Program-made: the position numbers and the translations under genes
The notes under the pieces: generated by a model
What the model saw: only the letters and a program-made list of their open reading frames with translations
What the model was told of the DNA's origin: nothing
Databases searched by the model: none
NCBI RefSeq assembly: GCF_023159225.1
Contig: NC_063169.1
Coordinates: 60,599,934 to 60,663,933, forward strand
Reading direction: 5' to 3'
DNA from: Perognathus longimembris pacificus
Lineage: Eukaryota; Chordata; Mammalia; Rodentia; Heteromyidae
DNA length: 64,000 nt
Part shown: positions 3,548-60,815 of the stretch, one piece after another
How positions within the stretch are numbered: the first letter of the stretch is position 1
Layout: the number at the start of each line of letters is the position of its first letter

Positions 3548-3660
3548 CTTTTTTCTTTTTTGTCAGTCACGGGGCTTGATCTCAGGCCCTGGGCACTGGC
3601 CCTGAGCACTTTCACTCAAGGTTAGTGCTCTACCTTTGAACCACAGTACCACTTCCTGAT
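3548..3660 (-). mobile_element. SINE tRNA-like half, antisense
   Basis: Begins with a T-rich tail (the A-tail on the minus strand), then GTCAGTCACGGGGCTTGATC and a reverse-complement A box near 3625-3645. It is the right half of the composite or dimeric SINE. The left half is missing, as expected for 5' truncation. Confidence 0.7.
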
Positions 3661-7814: not shown

Positions 7815-8260
7815 TTGTTTGTTTTCCAATCCTGGGGTTTGAACTCAGGGCCTGGGCAATGTCACTGAGCTTTGTGCTCAAGGCTAGAACTCTACCACTT
7901 TAGCCACAGCGACACTTCTTGCCACTTCTGAGTAGTTTATTGGAGATGAAGAGTCTCACAGACATTCAGCTTCATTTGAGTTTGGTGTTGTTGTTTTTTA
8001 AATTGTCAAAGTGATGTACAGAGAGGGGTTACAATTTCATACATAAGGCATTGAGTGCATTTCTTATCAAACTTGTTACTTCATTTTTCTCCCACTTCCT
8101 CCTCCCCAATTCCAGTCCTCCCACCCCAGTGGCTCAGTTGGCTTACAGCATATTGTCTTGTAAGCATTGCTGTTGCATTGGTTAGTTTTGAACCACAATC
8201 CTCAAATCTCAGCCTCCTGAGTAGCTAGGTTTACAGGTGTGAGCCACCTGCACCCAGAAC
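7815..8260 (-). mobile_element. B1-tRNA composite SINE, antisense, interrupted
   Basis: The tRNA-like half lies first on this strand (CCTGGGGTTTGAACTCAGGG to about 7930), followed by the linker (TTTATTGGAGATGAAGAGTC). A piece of L1 tail then intervenes at about 7990-8185. The B1-like head resumes at about 8186-8258 (CTCAGCCTCCTGAGTAGCTA, then ACAGGTGTGAGCCACCTGCA). The two parts read as one SINE split by a later insertion. Confidence 0.75.
7990..8185 (-). mobile_element. L1 3' end inside the SINE, antisense
   Basis: AAATTGTCAAAGTGATGTAC followed by the reverse complement of the polypurine-rich L1 3' end matches, on the opposite strand, the L1 tails at 23830-23960 and 33520-33655 in this window. 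It is short (5' truncated) and sits inside the SINE at 7815-8260, so it inserted later. Confidence 0.75.
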
Positions 8261-14651: not shown

Positions 14652-14873
14652 GCCAGTCCCGGGGCTTTAATTCAGGGCCTGGATGCTGTCACTGAGTTTT
14701 TGTTCAAGGCTATTACTCTACCACGAATCACATCTCCACTTCCAGCTTTTGGTGGTTTATTGGAAATAATAGTCTGACAAACTTCCCTGCACAAGCCTGC
14801 TTTGAACCTTGATCTTCTGATCTCTACTTCCTGAGCAGCTAGAGTTACAGGCATGGGCTTCTAGGCCCAGCTT
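14652..14873 (-). mobile_element. B1-tRNA composite SINE, antisense
   Basis: Reads on this strand as tail-side tRNA-like half (CCAGTCCCGGGGCTTTAATT, GCTATTACTCTACCACGAAT), linker (TTTATTGGAAATAATAGTCT), then B1-like head (TTCCTGAGCAGCTAGAGTTA, ACAGGCATGGGCTTCTAGGC). Near full length. Confidence 0.8.
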
Positions 14874-15269: not shown

Positions 15270-17030
15270 ACCCATCTTTGTATCCCTCTTCCTTTCTCTA
15301 AATGCCTCTTCTTGCTGTCCTTAAGCCAAGTGTTTTCATGGTATCTGAGCTGGTGAACATTAAAGAACAGAAGGGTTGTTTTTTGTTTGTTTGTTTTTCC
15401 CAGTCTCTCCCTGCCCCAAGTCCCTCCTCCACCTTTTGAATCCTTTCCTGTGCCCCATGAGACTGAGCTGACACTGAACGGGCCTGGTGGAGAGCTGCTT
15501 TGCAAGGCCCTATGCTACTACCCATCCTTCTTCCTTACAAAAGGGAATGGGATTTCATAGTGTATAAATCTTATTTCAGAGAATACAAAGATGAGACATG
15601 CAGACTGGCACTCTGTCAGTATGAGAGAACAGTACACATGCAGTCATACTGGTGATAAGGAAAAGCAAAACATGGAAGATAACATTTAAAAAAAACACAC
15701 CACCAAACAGATGAACAATAACAAAAAAGTCAGCTGCACGAATTTCTAGTATTTGGTGTGACTGATTGCTTTGCATTAATGTGAACAAACTGCATTAAAA
15801 TAAGAATCAATGGAAAATTAGCTTTCTAAGCACCCTGGAAAACTGGAGATTCATTTCTGGGGCATCTAGACTTAGCCCTTGGATGAAGATGAAATCATGC
15901 AGACATTGGCCTGAGATCAGAAGGCAAATAGGTAGCTGTATAAGTCCTTCTAGGAACTAATGGAAATCCTTCAAAGGAAAGGCAATGACCTGGCAAGAAT
16001 GAGCCTTGGTCTGTCTTGTGAGGATCTTGACTCTTCAGTTGTGAGTTCCTATTCCATTTCAGGGAGAGCTGAGGAAGCTGTGCTGAGAAACGCTGCATCT
16101 GCCCCTCTCCTGGGGGGCCACCTCCCTTCTGATTAGGTTTGCATCCTTGGCAAATTCAATCAGGAACTTAATGTAACCTTGCAGCATGTGTGTTGGGAGT
16201 GAGTCGCTTCCTGTCAGTCTGCAATCTGACTGATACACTGCAGTGCTCAATAAACGTTGCCTATTAATGTCATCGTAATCATTGTGATTTTCTAACCAGC
16301 AACAGACATTTTTTCTGAATTGAGGCTTTTTTAGTTGATTTAAAATGCAGTCTTCCAGTAATCACAGATGAAAGACTAAAAAAAATTCCTCCTAATTGTG
16401 AATAAAAGCGTGGTTGAAGGAAGTGAGACTGTCAACCTGTCTGGGCGCATTCCTGAGCTATATCAGCACATGAACGGTGAAGAGACATTGTGGCTAGGCT
16501 GGATCACACTAGACCCAATTCCCTTAATAGCACAGGGCTAAGGATTTTATTAATTTCCATGAAGAATTGGAACTGTGCATCTCAAAGCCTGCTTTCTATG
16601 CTCCAGAGTTCTTTGTTGTTTAATTGGGCTGTAGTTCACTTGAGAGAACCATTTGTAGGGTGGATTCTTATTTTCTGTAATTGTCTGTGTCTTCAGAATC
16701 ATTTCAAGATGATTCATCTAATCTAGCAGCCTGGTGACTGTAGTCACTCTGCAGCCTTGCATGCACAAGGCAGGTGGGAACTGTTCTCCTGGACAGGGCT
16801 GAATCTGGGAGCTCCGTGTGCTGCTGCGCCAGCATCATGTCATGCCACCCTTCTGCCTTGCTGCTACCAATGAGTCATGTATATCGAGAGTCAGGATGAA
16901 CCTGGAAGCAGACCAGTGAATTCATTATGCCTCATTCCCTTCTTTCAGATTAGGAAATCGTACTAAATATTGTTCAACTACTTTGTACAGAAATCCTGCC
17001 TTACATTCATTTTTTAACGAAGATGTCCAA
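15270..17030. other. Unannotated sequence
   Basis: No exon or repeat recognised. Somewhat less AT-rich between 15900 and 16260 and between 16730 and 16860. That could reflect conserved non-coding sequence but cannot be judged without an alignment. Confidence 0.4.
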
Positions 17031-17031
17031 G

Positions 17032-17034
<3 letters not shown>

Positions 17035-17079
<45 letters not shown>
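17035..17079. repeat. (CA)n microsatellite
   Basis: An uninterrupted CA tract of about 44 bases. Confidence 0.95.
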
Positions 17080-17082
<3 letters not shown>

Positions 17083-17261
17083 CATTCCATTTGAAATAGG
17101 AAATTGAAGGATGGAGTTCTTCACTTACCTCCATGCTACCTGCTAGTAGACATCACTTAAGACAGGATCTTACGGGACTCGGGGGGGCCAGATGGCTTCT
17201 GAGAAGCCTTTCTGCCCTTGGCACTCTCTAATTCCAAAACTGTAGAAGATTCTGATGTCAT

Positions 17262-21178: not shown

Positions 21179-21394
21179 GGGCTGGGGATATGGCCTAGTG
21201 GCAAGAGTGCCTGCCTCATATACATGAGGCCCTGGGTTCGATTCCCCAGCACCACATATACAGAAAATGGCCAGAAGTGGCGCTGTGGCTCAAGTGGCAG
21301 AGTGCTAGCCTTGAGCAAAAAGAAGCCAGGGACAGTGTTCAGGCCCTGAGTCCAAGCCCCAGGACTGGCAAAAAAAAAAAAAAAAAAAAAAAAA
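21179..21394 (+). mobile_element. Dimeric ID-type SINE, young
   Basis: One of the best-preserved copies. The ID-like half starts GGGCTGGGGATATGGCCTAG and contains GGGTTCGATTCCCCAGCACC. The second half contains GTGGCTCAAGTGGCAGAGTG and ends GGACTGGC before an A-tail of about 25. It is flanked by perfect 10-bp duplications ACAGAAATTC (21169-21178 and 21395-21404). Confidence 0.95.
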
Positions 21395-22575: not shown

Positions 22576-23990
22576 TGGGGATATTAACACTTGGGCTCCT
22601 TGGCACAGGACAAAACTTCCTTAATAAAGGCCCAGAATTGCAACAAATCAAAGAAAGGTTGGACAAATGGGACTGCATCCAACTGCAGAGCTTCTCCAGG
22701 GCAAAGGACATAGCTTGCAAGATAAATAGGAAGCCCACAGATTGGGAAAAGATGTTTACCAGCCCACACAATGGACAAAGGCCTCATATCTAAAATATAT
22801 GCAGAACTCAAAAAATTAAATTCATCCAAAACAAAACCACAAAGAACCAACAGCCCCCTCAACAAGTGGGCCAAAGGCTTAAAAAGAGACTTCTCTGATG
22901 AGGAAATGAGAATGGCCAAAAGACATATGAAAAAGTGCTCTATATCACTGGCCATAAAAGAAATGCAAATCAAAACAACATTGAGATTCCACCTCACCTC
23001 AGTAAGAATGTCCATTATCAAGAAAACTAATAATAACAAATGTTGGAGGGGATGTAACCAAAAGGGGACCCTACTTCATTGTTGATGGGAATGTAAACTG
23101 GTTCAGCCACTCTGGCAAGCAGTACGGAGATTCCTCAGAAGTCTAAGCATAGACCCAGCAGCCCCACTTTTAGGCATCTACCCAAAAGACCACAAACAAG
23201 AACACACTGAAGCCACCAGCACAACAATGTTCATTGCAACACAACTTGTCATAGCTAAAATATGAAACCAACCCAGATGCCCCTCAGTAGATGAATGGAT
23301 CAGGAAAATGTGGTACATATACACAATGGAATTTTATGCCTCTATCAGAAAGAATGACATTGCCCCATTTGTAAGGAAATGGAAGGACTTGGAAAAAATT
23401 ATACTAAGTGAAGTGAGCCAGACCCAAAGAAACATGGACTCTATGGTTTCCCTCATAGGGAATAATTAGCACACGTTTAGGCTCACAGCAGAGGATCACA
23501 AAAGCCCAAAAGCTATGCCCTTATAAACACAGAAGATGATGCTAAGTGAAATGAACTCCATGTTATGGAAATGAGTGTTATATCACTGTTGTAATTACTT
23601 TCAACATGCCATGTGAAAACATAGCTTCTTTTGTTGATGATCCTCCTGTATTTCCTTCCTGTGGGTGTCCCTGCGCTATTACTGTTATCTCATCTGAGTA
23701 CCCTGGATATTGTTTATACTGGTATTAGAACTAGGAAAGTGAAAGGGAATATCAAAATCGAGAGACAAAGGATAAAAAGACAAACAACTCCAAAAGTAAT
23801 ACTTGCAAAACCACTTGGTATAAATCACCTGAACAACTCATGAGGGGAGAGGGAAAGGGGGAGGGGAGAGGAGGGGGAATGAGGGAGGAGGTAACAAATA
23901 GTACAAGAAATGTGCCCATGGCCTAACGTATGAAACTATAACCCCTCTGTACATCACTTTGACAATAAATAATTATTATTTAAAAAAATT
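22576..23990 (+). mobile_element. L1 ORF2 3' end and 3' UTR, sense part of twin-primed L1
   Basis: Sense L1. The frame from 22569 reads an ORF2 stretch with residues LDKWDCIQLQSF. A one-base frameshift near 22770 moves it to a second frame ([45 protein letters not shown]). That frame ends in a stop replacing a conserved Trp after LLHC near 23084. ORF2-like sequence continues to about 23465, then the 3' UTR with its G/A-rich tract at 23850-23890. It ends CATCACTTTGACAATAAATA and a short A-rich tail. Non-functional. Confidence 0.93.
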
Positions 23991-24187: not shown

Positions 24188-24413
24188 TCCAGGAGTTCAC
24201 ACTTGTAATCATAGCTATGCAAAAGGCTAAGGTCTGAGAATAACAGTTCCAAGTCAGCCCAGGCATGAAAGTCTGTAAGACTCTTATCTCCAATTAAGCA
24301 ACAACAACAACAAAAAAAGCCAGAAGAGGAGCTGTGACTCAGGTAGAGTACTAGCCTTGGGAAAGAAACTGCTCAGGGACAGCACTAAGGTCCTGAATTC
24401 AAGTCCTAGAACA
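24188..24413 (+). mobile_element. B1-tRNA composite SINE
   Basis: B1-like head (CACACTTGTAATCATAGCTA, AAGGCTAAGGTCTGAGAATA), linker (CTTATCTCCAATTAAGCAAC), then the tRNA-like half (GGAGCTGTGACTCAGGTAGA) ending CCTGAATTCAAGTCCTAGAA. Confidence 0.8.
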
Positions 24414-25357: not shown

Positions 25358-25585
25358 GGCTGCAAGTGGCTCATGCCTGTAATCTTACCTTTTCATGAGG
25401 CTGAGATTTGAGGGTCTAAGTTCAAAACCAGCCCATGTAGGAAAGTCTGTGAGTCTCTTATCTCCAATAAATTACCAAAAAAATGAAAATGGAGCTGTGT
25501 CTCAAGTGGTAGAACGCTCTCCTTGAGCAAAAAAAGCTCATGAACAGCACCTAGGCCTTGAGTTCAAGTCCCAGGACTTCCCCTC
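25358..25585 (+). mobile_element. B1-tRNA composite SINE
   Basis: Head CAAGTGGCTCATGCCTGTAA and TGAGGCTGAGATTTGAGGGT, linker CTCTTATCTCCAATAAATTA, tRNA-like half GAGCTGTGTCTCAAGTGGTA ending TTGAGTTCAAGTCCCAGGAC. The tail region has become C- and A-rich. Confidence 0.82.
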
Positions 25586-25699: not shown

Positions 25700-25915
25700 G
25701 GGCTGGGGATATGGCCTAGTGGCAAGAGTGCCTGCCTCATATACATGAGGCCCTGGGTTCGATTCCCCAGCACCACATATACAGAAAATGGCCAGAAGTG
25801 GCGCTGTGGCTCAAGTGGCAGAGTGCTAGCCTTGAGCAAAAAAGAAGCCAGGGACAGTGCTCAGGCCCTGAGTTCACGGCCTGGGACTGGCAAAAAAAAA
25901 AAAAAAAAAAAAAAA
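25700..25915 (+). mobile_element. Dimeric ID-type SINE, young
   Basis: Almost identical in its first 150 bases to the copy at 21179. The A-tail runs directly into a GAAA repeat. Target duplications GAAAGAAAGGGTTGG lie at 25685-25699 and, beyond the microsatellite, at 25962-25976, which shows that the GAAA tract arose between tail and duplication. Confidence 0.95.
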
Positions 25916-29735: not shown

Positions 29736-29942
29736 GGGCTGGGGATATAGCTTAGTGGCAAGAGCACTTGCCTTGTATACATGAAACCCTGGGTTCGATT
29801 CCCCAGCACCACATATACAGAAAATGGCCAGAAGTGGTGCTGTGACTCAAGTGGCAGAGTGCTAGCCTTGAGCAAAAAGAAGCCAAGGGACAGTGCTCAG
29901 GCTCTGAGTCCAAGACCCAGGACTGGCAAAAAAAAAAAAAAA
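29736..29942 (+). mobile_element. Dimeric ID-type SINE, very young
   Basis: Complete dimer (head GGGCTGGGGATATAGCTTAG; second half GTGACTCAAGTGGCAGAGTG; end GGACTGGC plus A-tail). It has a perfect 13-bp target duplication ATGATGGGGGCAA at 29723-29735 and 29943-29955. The unmutated duplication indicates recent insertion. Confidence 0.96.
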
Positions 29943-31076: not shown

Positions 31077-31156
31077 TTTTTTTTTTTTGGCCAGTCCTGG
31101 GGCTTGGACTCAGGGCCTGAACACTGTCCCTGGCTTCTTTTTGCTCAAGGCTACTA
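31077..31156 (-). mobile_element. Dimeric SINE right half, antisense, 5' truncated
   Basis: T-tail, then GCCAGTCCTGGGGCTTGGAC and GGCTTCTTTTTGCTCAAGGC. This is the reverse complement of the second SINE half. The match stops after CTACT, so the ID-like half was never copied. Confidence 0.9.
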
Positions 31157-34387: not shown

Positions 34388-34600
34388 TTAACCAGTGTTG
34401 CTACTGGAGCTAGATCCCAGGACCTCACTTGTCTCTCTGCTCTGAGCTAGTGCTGTGCCACATGAACCACACCTTCATTTCTGGCTTTTGGATGATTAAT
34501 TGGAGATCAGAGTTTCTCAGCTCTGGGCTATTTCTGGACTGAGATTCTCAAATCTTAGCCTTCTGGGTAGCTAGGATAATAGGCAAGACCTACCAATCCA
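34388..34600 (-). mobile_element. B1-tRNA composite SINE, antisense, diverged
   Basis: GAGCTAGATCCCAGGACCTC (tRNA-like half), TTAATTGGAGATCAGAGTTT (linker), CTTAGCCTTCTGGGTAGCTA (B1-like head). Confidence 0.72.
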
Positions 34601-34621: not shown

Positions 34622-34836
34622 ATGGGCATCAGTGGCTCACACCTGTAATGGGAGCGACTCAGGAAGCTAAGATCTGAGGATCGTGGTTCAAAGCCACCCT
34701 GGGAAGCAAAGTCCTTAACTCCAATATACTACCAAAAAACCAGAAGTGGGGCTGTGGTACTAGTTATAGAGCATTTGCCTTGAGCATGAAAGCTCTAGGA
34801 CAGCACCCAGGCCCTGAGTACAAGCCCCAGCCCCAG
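34622..34836 (+). mobile_element. B1-tRNA composite SINE
   Basis: GGCATCAGTGGCTCACACCT, AAGCTAAGATCTGAGGATCG, TCCAATATACTACCAAAAAA, then GGGGCTGTGGTACTAGTTAT and CCTGAGTACAAGCCCCAGCC. It stands back-to-back with the antisense SINE just upstream. Confidence 0.85.
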
Positions 34837-41739: not shown

Positions 41740-41970
41740 CTCATGCGCCAGTGGCTCACGGCTCACAGTTGTAATCCTAGCCGCTAAGGAGGCCTAGATT
41801 TGAGGATTGAGGCTCAATGCCAGCCCAAGTCGGAAAGTCCATGAGACATCTCCAATTAACCACCAAGAAGCCAGAAGTAGAGCTGTGATCAAGTGGTAGA
41901 GCACTGGACTTGAGCACATAAAGCACCAAGACAGCACCCAGGCCCTGAGTTCAAGCTCCAGGACCAGCGT
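41740..41970 (+). mobile_element. B1-tRNA composite SINE
   Basis: CAGTTGTAATCCTAGCCGCT, TCGGAAAGTCCATGAGACAT, GAGCTGTGATCAAGTGGTAG, CCTGAGTTCAAGCTCCAGGA. Complete, with the tail replaced by a CA tract. Confidence 0.88.
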
Positions 41971-44457: not shown

Positions 44458-44472
44458 AAAAATACCTTTAAG
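44458..44472. repeat. Target-site duplication of the U1 retrocopy, left
   Basis: AAAAATACCTTTAAG, repeated without mismatch at 44643-44657. Confidence 0.95.
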
Positions 44473-44636
44473 ATACTTACCTGGCAGGGGAGACACCATG
44501 ATCAGGCAGGTGGTTCTCCCAGGGCGAGGCTCATCCATTGCACTTTGGCTGTGCTGACCCCTGCGATTTCCCCAAATGCGGGAAACTCGACTGCACAATT
44601 TGTGTTAGTGGGGGACTGCGTCCGCGCTCTCCCCCG
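44473..44636 (+). pseudogene. RNU1: U1 snRNA retropseudogene, full length
   Basis: 164 nt, the full length of mammalian U1, from ATACTTACCTGGCAGGGGAG to CGCGCTCTCCCCCG. The splice-donor pairing sequence ACTTACCTG is intact. Compared with the human U1 I remember there are about 14 differences, mostly C/T transitions. The loop I region that binds U1-70K is altered (GATCAGGCAGG), the U1A loop core ATTGCAC is kept, and the Sm site reads AATTTGTGT. It ends in an A-tail and has perfect 15-bp target duplications. Upstream is L1 sequence, so the snRNA promoter is absent and expression is unlikely. L1-mediated retroposition of U1 RNA is inferred. Confidence 0.95.
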
Positions 44637-45297
44637 GAAAAAAAAAATACCTTTAAGAAAATCAAAAGGAAGTCCACAGAGTAAGGGAAAAAACTGAAAT
44701 ATAAACCTGTTAAATGGCTTATTTACAATACATAAAAGACCATTCAATTTAATAAGAAAACATCCCTTTATTTAAAATAAATAAAAGATTTAAATAGATA
44801 CTCAACAAAGAGCAAACAGAGGTGAAAAACAAGCACACAGAGAAGACATAATATGATTAATCATTAAGAAAATGCAAATAAGAATTGCGATAACCAAACT
44901 GGCTAATATTTAAAGGCTGGAATTACCAAGTGTCACACGAATGCAATGCAACACAAGCCTTTCAACACTGAGGATTCTGTATAGCATTTAGGGAAATATT
45001 TGAGACATCTCTTATAAAGATAAATAAATATATGCTTACTCTATGAGCCTACAATTACTCTTCTAAGTATATTGATCCACGGGAAAGAAAAACATGTCCA
45101 CAAGGCATATACGAAGATCTGTTTGCAAATGAAAACTGCCTTCATAGCCATCAAAAATGAAAACAAAACAAATGACCTTCAACTGATGCATGGGTAAACA
45201 AAGTGGAAATATACATCTATATCAGAATACTCAGCAATAAGGAAGAAATCAGGTAGACATTTGCATCAATATAGATGACTTTCAAAAGGAACTACAG

Positions 45298-45488: not shown

Positions 45489-45628
45489 AAGAAAAAAAAG
45501 CAACTACAAAATGCCAAACACAAAGTATTTATGAAATGTAGATCTATTAAATTAAAATAAAGTTGCATGCTATGTTGTTCTTGTTTTTATGAAATATTAG
45601 AAAAGCAAAACTGTAATGATTCTAAGCA

Positions 45629-45637
45629 AGTGTGTGT

Positions 45638-45669
<32 letters not shown>

Positions 45670-45670
45670 T
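45629..45670. repeat. (TG)n microsatellite
   Basis: About 40 bases of TG with one TATG interruption. Confidence 0.93.
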
Positions 45671-45674
45671 GCCA

Positions 45675-46230
45675 GGGGCAAGGAAGTTGGTGAAAATAAT
45701 GTGTGACAAATAACTAGAAATTTTGACATTACAGAAATGGTCTCCATAATGATGTTCTTGGACTTGGCTACCATTTAAAATTGTCAGGATTCATCTAATC
45801 AGACATGGAATCAGTGGATTTGATTGTATGTAGGTCAATAAATCTGACAAAAACCAAAAGGGAAACAAAAAAAGAGGGAAATGGTCTCTTTATGAAACAA
45901 TTGTACCCTTTGCCGAAAGCCAAAATAAGACACAAAAGATTAAAGATTTTTACTGAGAAAAAGGTTTTAGTGAAAGTATTTTCTACTTTGTATTTCTGAG
46001 CATTCTCCAGGAAAAAAAATGAAATAATAGGATTTGAAGTGAGGGAGAGTTAAAAAAAATAAGATCAAGTAAGAAACAGATGGAGAGAGACAGAGACAGA
46101 GATTCTAACAAACACAGAGAAGGAATTGTGTGGTTGACTTACAAGATTTTCAAGGCTTTACTGAGGTCATAGTGCAACTTGCAAGGTAGAATATTGGTAT
46201 AATTACTTCTTCATACTAGGAAATAAGTAT
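45675..46230. other. Unannotated AT-rich sequence
   Basis: Nothing recognised. Confidence 0.5.
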
Positions 46231-59064: not shown

Positions 59065-59077
59065 AAGCTGCTACCTG

Positions 59078-59920: not shown

Positions 59921-59923
59921 GTT

Positions 59924-59940
59924 ACATTTTTGTCTACCAA
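59924..59940. repeat. Target-site duplication of the tailless SINE head, left
   Basis: ACATTTTTGTCTACCAA, repeated without mismatch at 59984-60000. Confidence 0.97.
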
Positions 59941-59983
59941 GGGCTGGGGATATGGCCTAGTGGCAAGAGTGCTTGCCTCGTAT
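59941..59983 (+). mobile_element. Tailless SINE head (5' tRNA-half length)
   Basis: 43 bp, GGGCTGGGGATATGGCCTAG to CTTGCCTCGTAT: only the first 43 bases of the dimeric SINE, up to about the anticodon-loop position of its tRNA-like fold. There is no B box, second half or A-tail, yet perfect 17-bp duplications flank it. The SINE consensus continues with ACAT, the first four bases of the target repeat, so the 3' junction has 4 bp of microhomology. LINE insertions normally lose 5' sequence; this one lacks the 3' end. Confidence 0.93.
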
Positions 59984-60177
59984 ACATTTTTGTCTACCAA
60001 ATGTTGACTTACAAAGTGACTTTTTTCCTTTGATTTTTTTAGGTCTGATCTGCTTCAAAAGAGATACCATCCAGTAGTACTTGTATGTATACTACAGCAC
60101 ATGGAAGTAAGTCAACCTCCATATTCCTAAGTTCTAAGAGTTTTAATTATTAGATCACAATAGCTCCATAGCTATGT

Positions 60178-60815
60178 CCATATGAACACATAAGATGATG
60201 CTAAGCAAAATGAACTCCACTTTGGCGTATCCCATGTGGTTACTGTATATGATTTTGGTACACTGGATATTGTACATATGTTTACTTGAACTAGGGAAGG
60301 GAAAGAAAAATGAGGGAAGGTGTAACAAATATGACAAGAAATGTACTCACTACTTTATTATGTAACTGTACCCCCCTCTGTACATCACCTTGTCAATAAA
60401 ATTTAATTTTAAAAAAATGAACTCCAAGTTATGGAAATAAGTGGTTTATCATGGTTGTTGTTAGGTTCAATGTACCATGTGAAATTATGCCATTTTATTT
60501 TGTCTTTCTTTCCCATGGTTTTATCCCTGACATCACTGTAACTGATTTTGGTGCCCTGGGAATTGGAACTAGGGAAGGGAAGAGGAACATCAAAATGAGA
60601 GACAAAAGGTAAAAGGCAAACCAATGCAATAACAATACTTAAAAAACTATATGCTGTAAACCAACACAACTGGGGGAGGGGATTGGGGAGGGGGGAAGGT
60701 GGGAGAAAAGAGAGGAAGGAGGTAACAAATTTGATTAAAAAAAATAATGTACTCACTGCCTTACTATGAAACTAACCCCTCTGTACTTCAGTTTGACAAT
60801 AAATAAATCATTTAA
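60178..60815 (+). mobile_element. L1 3' end (outer), split by another L1
   Basis: CATAAGATGATGCTAAGCAA and ATGAACTCCA up to 60219, then, after the inner element, AGTTATGGAAATAAGTGG, TCAATGTACCATGTGAAATT, TGGAACTAGGGAAGGGAAG, the G-rich tract at 60671-60705 and TTCAGTTTGACAATAAATAA. Compare 23535-23960. Confidence 0.88.
60220..60414 (+). mobile_element. L1 3' end (inner), nested
   Basis: A shorter L1 tail (TTGAACTAGGGAAGGGAAAG, AGAAATGTACTCACTACTTT, TGTACATCACCTTGTCAATA) with an A-rich tail. It is bracketed by AAATGAACTCCA at 60208-60219 and 60415-60426, which is outer-L1 sequence duplicated on insertion. Confidence 0.88.

Follow-up and report, generated by a model that had tools for sequence, protein, structure and literature searches.

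A 5′ SINE head without A-tail between perfect 18-bp repeats, a probable tailless retropseudogene in Perognathus longimembris pacificus

The short insert and its SINE relatives

The window analysed here, a stretch of 64,000 nucleotides of Perognathus longimembris pacificus, contains a short composite structure between positions 59923 and 60000. It is formed by an 18-bp repeat on the forward strand (59923..59940, TACATTTTTGTCTACCAA), by the 5′ end of a dimeric tRNA-derived SINE in the same orientation (59941..59982, SINE positions 1-42), and by a second, exact copy of the repeat (59983..60000, forward strand). The two copies of this target-site duplication are 100% identical. As the initial annotation had described, neither the 3′ part of the SINE nor an A-tail is found between the head and the second repeat, which abuts the head immediately. 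A single T fits the SINE as well as the target, and its assignment decides between an insert of 42 bases with an 18-bp repeat and one of 43 bases with a 17-bp repeat; when the boundary is set at TT/ACAT, the head has 43 bases and reaches 59983. From the earlier description of a 43-base head within a 17-bp duplication, the perfect duplication around the head stood, while the exact repeat measured 18 bp and left 42 bases outside it.

The head was located where it had been proposed, and in blastn comparisons within the window its alignment began at SINE position 1, which means that the 5′ end is complete. All of the 43 head bases (43/43) were aligned; the identity was 95.3% with both the 21179 and the 25700 copies, which are also the nearest relatives of the head in the window (45/47 bases each). 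The alignment of 59941-59987 with positions 1-47 of the reference copy had 2 mismatches, and it extends past the head because the bases TACAT are common to the SINE and the target. Considering that this SINE has a length of about 191 bases, of which 42-43 are present, approximately 78% of the element is missing.

The family is presumably similar to a dimeric ID-like SINE that occurs in kangaroo rats and pocket mice. Eight BLAST matches in the window started at SINE position 1-3; seven of them (2399, 21179, 21934, 25700, 29736, 45297, and 59077) reached the 3′ end of the SINE and an A-rich tail, and the eighth was the head at 59941. The copy used as reference (21179..21369, forward strand) has 191 bases followed by 26 A. 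Two other forward-strand copies have an A-tail and an exact duplication, of 16 bp in 25700..25891 and of 13 bp in 29736..29927, the latter with a tRNA-like part that matches the Rfam tRNA model. In the other five full-length copies the duplications detected with a simple script were short or imperfect. A second tailless head was not found: with BLAST at an E threshold of 0.5, which very short heads would escape, the match at 59941 was the only one that starts at position 1-3 yet stops short.

Other pieces of the SINE were also seen. Copies consisting of the second unit only lie at 7826-7927, 14652-14742, 24313-24412, 25487-25578, 34432-34485, 34740-34830, and 41870-41964; by eye they share a leader like CTCCAATTAACCACCAAAAA, and perhaps they represent a separate SINE family that has the right unit in common. 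On the reverse strand, 31090-31153 corresponds to SINE positions 128-191, is 100% identical to the copy at 21179, and is followed by an A-rich tail; it looks like an ordinary 5′-truncated young copy.

Two simple explanations of the short insert were discarded. An ordinary 5′-truncated SINE is ruled out, since it is the 3′ end that is absent here, and the 5′ end is retained. A chance repeat is likewise ruled out by a scan of the window for exact direct repeats of at least 13 bp with a spacing of 25-450, from which low complexity was removed. The 18-bp pair was the longest found, apart from the repeat-rich stretches at ~32.6-33.3 and 34.1-34.4 kb, and it abuts the first SINE base; in 20 order-1 Markov sequences of the same length there were 0-2 repeats of at least 13 bp per sequence, and the longest exact direct repeat reached 15 bp.

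Junction overlap and position of the stop

The first five bases of the second repeat, TACAT (59983..59987, forward strand), coincide with positions 43-47 of the SINE, whose alignment continues up to 59987; we presume that this is the priming site. By pairing a random SINE position with a random target 400,000 times, the probability of a junction overlap of at least 5 was estimated as 0.0057. The short overlap between target and SINE RNA that had been claimed is thus borne out, at a chance level of about 0.006. Whether the SINE continues with the bases that open the repeat, as had also been claimed, depends on the copy taken as source: the bases aligned to positions 43-47 are TACAT in 4/7 full-length copies, for which the claim is correct, and TGCAT in 3/7, for which it is not. 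An overlap of 5 nt is expected both under internal priming of the RNA and under a later deletion of a full copy; it therefore speaks against chance and against a fragment cut in the loop, and not against the deletion.

The stop was also placed on the fold of the SINE RNA. By alignment of the Rfam tRNA model to the copy at 29736, with the SINE numbering counted by hand, the anticodon loop falls on SINE positions 37-43, and positions 44-48 form the 3′ strand of its stem. In agreement with the stop near the anticodon loop that had been noted, this model puts the end of the head at the end of the loop, so the head is predicted to stop at its 3′ edge. Three source RNAs were modelled by joining the SINE head to the remainder of three window copies, and in their folds, both full and 1-78, bases 42-45 were located in a hairpin loop with an unpaired probability of 0.9-1.0; bases 46-47, which belong to the presumed priming site, were predicted to be paired. 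The folds of the 7 natural copies and of the consensus vary, and several of them pair bases 43-47. For the presumed priming site, these models support a single-stranded state only in part.

The position of the stop could favour a template already cut in the anticodon loop, that is, a SINE RNA fragment comparable to a tRNA half, which LINE-1 would have used from its 3′ end. When the head is taken as 43 bases, its end falls on a UA step (U43/A44) at the loop edge. In PMC13174262 it is reported that the tRNA pieces joined to LINE-1 in chimeras usually have half the length of a tRNA, that nucleotides 1-37 are often incorporated, and that the breakpoints resemble the cleavage sites of tRNA halves. 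The tRNA-half-like origin suggested in the initial annotation does not agree with the junction. The matching bases 43-47 begin at the 3′ edge of the loop and continue past it, and an RNA cut in the loop would not carry them all; because the pairing bases have this location, priming by microhomology and a tRNA-half template are in conflict. For a fragment that ends at base 43 or before and lacks bases 44-47, the overlap with the target would be a coincidence, with a probability of about 0.006. In addition, Noll et al. sought fragments of 5S rRNA and U2 and their adenylated versions, obtained none that was convincing, and favoured internal priming (PMC5322556). We consider it improbable that LINE-1 in this lineage captured a stable 5′ SINE RNA fragment cut at the anticodon loop; if it did, SINE-derived RNAs similar to tRNA halves would exist in the germline and would be mobilised as such.

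Internal priming, later deletion, and break-primed insertion

Taking into account the anatomy of the insert, it is very probably a tailless retropseudogene that arose from SINE RNA through the LINE-1 machinery, by target-primed reverse transcription in which the nicked target annealed inside the RNA. The LINE-1 endonuclease would nick the lower strand either at TT/ACAT or one base before it, and the freed 3′ end (...AAATGT or ...AAATGTA) would anneal to (U)ACAU, SINE bases 43/44-47, and not to the A-tail. This annealing site would adjoin the loop of the tRNA-like fold. Reverse transcription would proceed from there to the 5′ end of the RNA, and cleavage of the second strand 17-18 bp away would produce the duplication. 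We infer the enzyme, the position of the nick, and a longer, internally primed template RNA; what is observed is a 5′ end that is complete, no tail, a perfect duplication, and an overlap, and target-primed reverse transcription from inside the RNA accounts for all four in one step.

The same features could be the result of two events. A full-length A-tailed SINE would have been inserted normally, and the region from approximately base 43 to the end of the tail would have been lost later by microhomology-mediated deletion, between the TACAT of the SINE and that with which the second repeat begins (ATACAT when the last A of the tail is counted); the outcome would be the observed sequence. In a simulated full copy at the site with a 26-A tail, the exact deletion has an overlap of 6 nt and is 1 of the 7 possible deletions with an overlap of at least 6, and 4/52 deletions with an overlap of at least 5 leave a clean tailless duplication. 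The 5-nt overlap is likewise predicted by this reading, and in one human study the polymorphisms of AluS were mostly deletions (37/48), possibly of another kind (PMC5402677). Against this, the deletion must end exactly at the border between tail and repeat, and only 150/33,159 enumerated deletions (0.45%) give a clean tailless duplication. The two repeats have kept their full identity, so that a second event would have had less time to occur. The repeat also begins with at most one A, which would be a poor primer for an A-tail, a weak argument since 8 tailed controls lead with 1-5 A, two of them with 1. We regard the deletion as unlikely, because the second event must end exactly at that border while the repeats are identical.

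With respect to the nick proposed for internal priming, the TT/ACAT boundary matches 4/6 bases of TT/AAAA, a score of at least 4 that 7.5% of the window positions reach, and the context TT/ACATTTT resembles the published TT/WAAAAWW only weakly. Nine control insertions, namely, the seven SINE copies, a U1 copy, and the second-unit SINE copy at 3564-3655, scored 2-6 against TT/AAAA, each at the best of three offsets, which is generous; the start of the duplication in the control at 59077 was picked by eye. The endonuclease motif is compatible and not diagnostic, and it cannot separate priming from deletion because the controls overlap. The motif score and the leading-A content were for this reason dropped as discriminators between both, being too weak.

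The imperfect motif (4/6) could also be read in favour of LINE-1 priming at a staggered double-strand break without the endonuclease, or of another repair-linked capture of SINE cDNA. A perfect 18-bp duplication together with a TT/A nick context is ordinary for an endonuclease-dependent insertion, and this stands against a break. In PMC5402677, internal priming at staggered breaks is stated to yield tail-less copies with duplications. Even so, we hold an origin at a break to be very improbable, more so than any of the others considered here.

Relation to known tailless copies and other features of the window

Tailless retropseudogenes of therian mammals were reportedly described by Schmitz et al. 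in 2004 and are said to have been known as a by-product of LINE-1 since then. Noll et al. 2015 characterise them by a 3′ truncation at single-stranded regions, duplications, no tail, and a target complementarity of 2-18 nt, with 2,402 clear human cases from many RNAs (PMC5322556). Their criteria are a 3′ truncation of at least 10 nt, an element of at least 30 nt, and an identity above 69% (PMC5322556); the head has 42-43 of about 191 nt and 95.3% identity to the closest window copies. Its 5-nt target complementarity at the 3′ stop lies inside the published range, and its 18-bp, 100% identical duplication falls in the range of 8-35 nt of tailless retropseudogenes. The fit to this class (PMC5322556, PMC3747384) that had been claimed is thus sustained: the insert is 5′-complete and 3′-truncated, with no A-tail, a perfect duplication, and a target complementary at the stop. 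It is not an unusual new class but a further case of the known tailless kind.

The source differs from that of the described tailless retropseudogenes, being here a dimeric tRNA-derived SINE. The transcripts of B2, ID, B1, and Alu are named as significant sources, with data not shown, in PMC5322556, and in a limited literature search no published tailless example from this dimeric SINE family was noticed. PMC2912911 examines tailless tRNA copies for microhomologies at their 3′ junctions, and internal priming of Alu is treated in PMC5402677 and PMC5059674. The insert is similar to the Alu and L1 insertions by internal priming (Srikanta et al. 2009, cited in PMC5402677), in which reverse transcription starts within the RNA and a duplication without tail results. 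The one polymorphic AluS described in PMC5402677 is full-length and lacks only the tail, whereas here ~78% of the element is absent. Alu copies that resemble monomers also comprise the front part of a dimeric SINE and share the ambiguity between internal priming and recombination (PMC5322556 and PMC5059674); those cases have been described as monomers, which in some instances carry a few right-monomer bases (PMC5322556), whereas the head stops at the anticodon loop of the tRNA. The insert is a clean single example, and it suggests that a dimeric tRNA-derived SINE was also subject to the relaxed LINE-1 priming for which most descriptions come from human data. To a map of where SINE RNA is primed internally it contributes one data point, and the general picture is unchanged.

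Other truncated copies of small RNAs were searched for with Rfam in the window at E up to 0.5, and 33 matches were obtained. Of these, 28 were to microRNA families, all below the gathering score, and judged from the match table alone they are probably matches to simple repeats. The remaining ones were U1, the tRNA part of the SINE, one weak Metazoa_SRP (21.5 bits), and two weak SCARNA7 (23.4 and 21.7 bits). The weak matches, in this order at 8160-8258 (reverse strand), 17026-17161 (reverse strand), and 45537-45681 (forward strand), are below the gathering score and may be due to chance or to old SINE relics. The U1 snRNA-like copy at 44473-44636 is full-length and scores 161.9 bits with Rfam U1. 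Together with its A-rich end and a duplication of 16 bp, AAAAATACCTTTAAGA, it occupies 44458-44658; it looks like an ordinary tailed U1 retrocopy, in contrast to the tailless head.

Degenerate tandem-like units of the TCACATGTCCATC type run from 32646 to about 33280 and from 34118 to about 34370, and some units of the second stretch resemble the reverse complement of this type. Finally, TGTACATCACyTTGwCAATAAA is, by eye, common to about 60380-60410 and 23948-23975, which suggests that the former stretch, just downstream of the SINE head, is another dispersed repeat.
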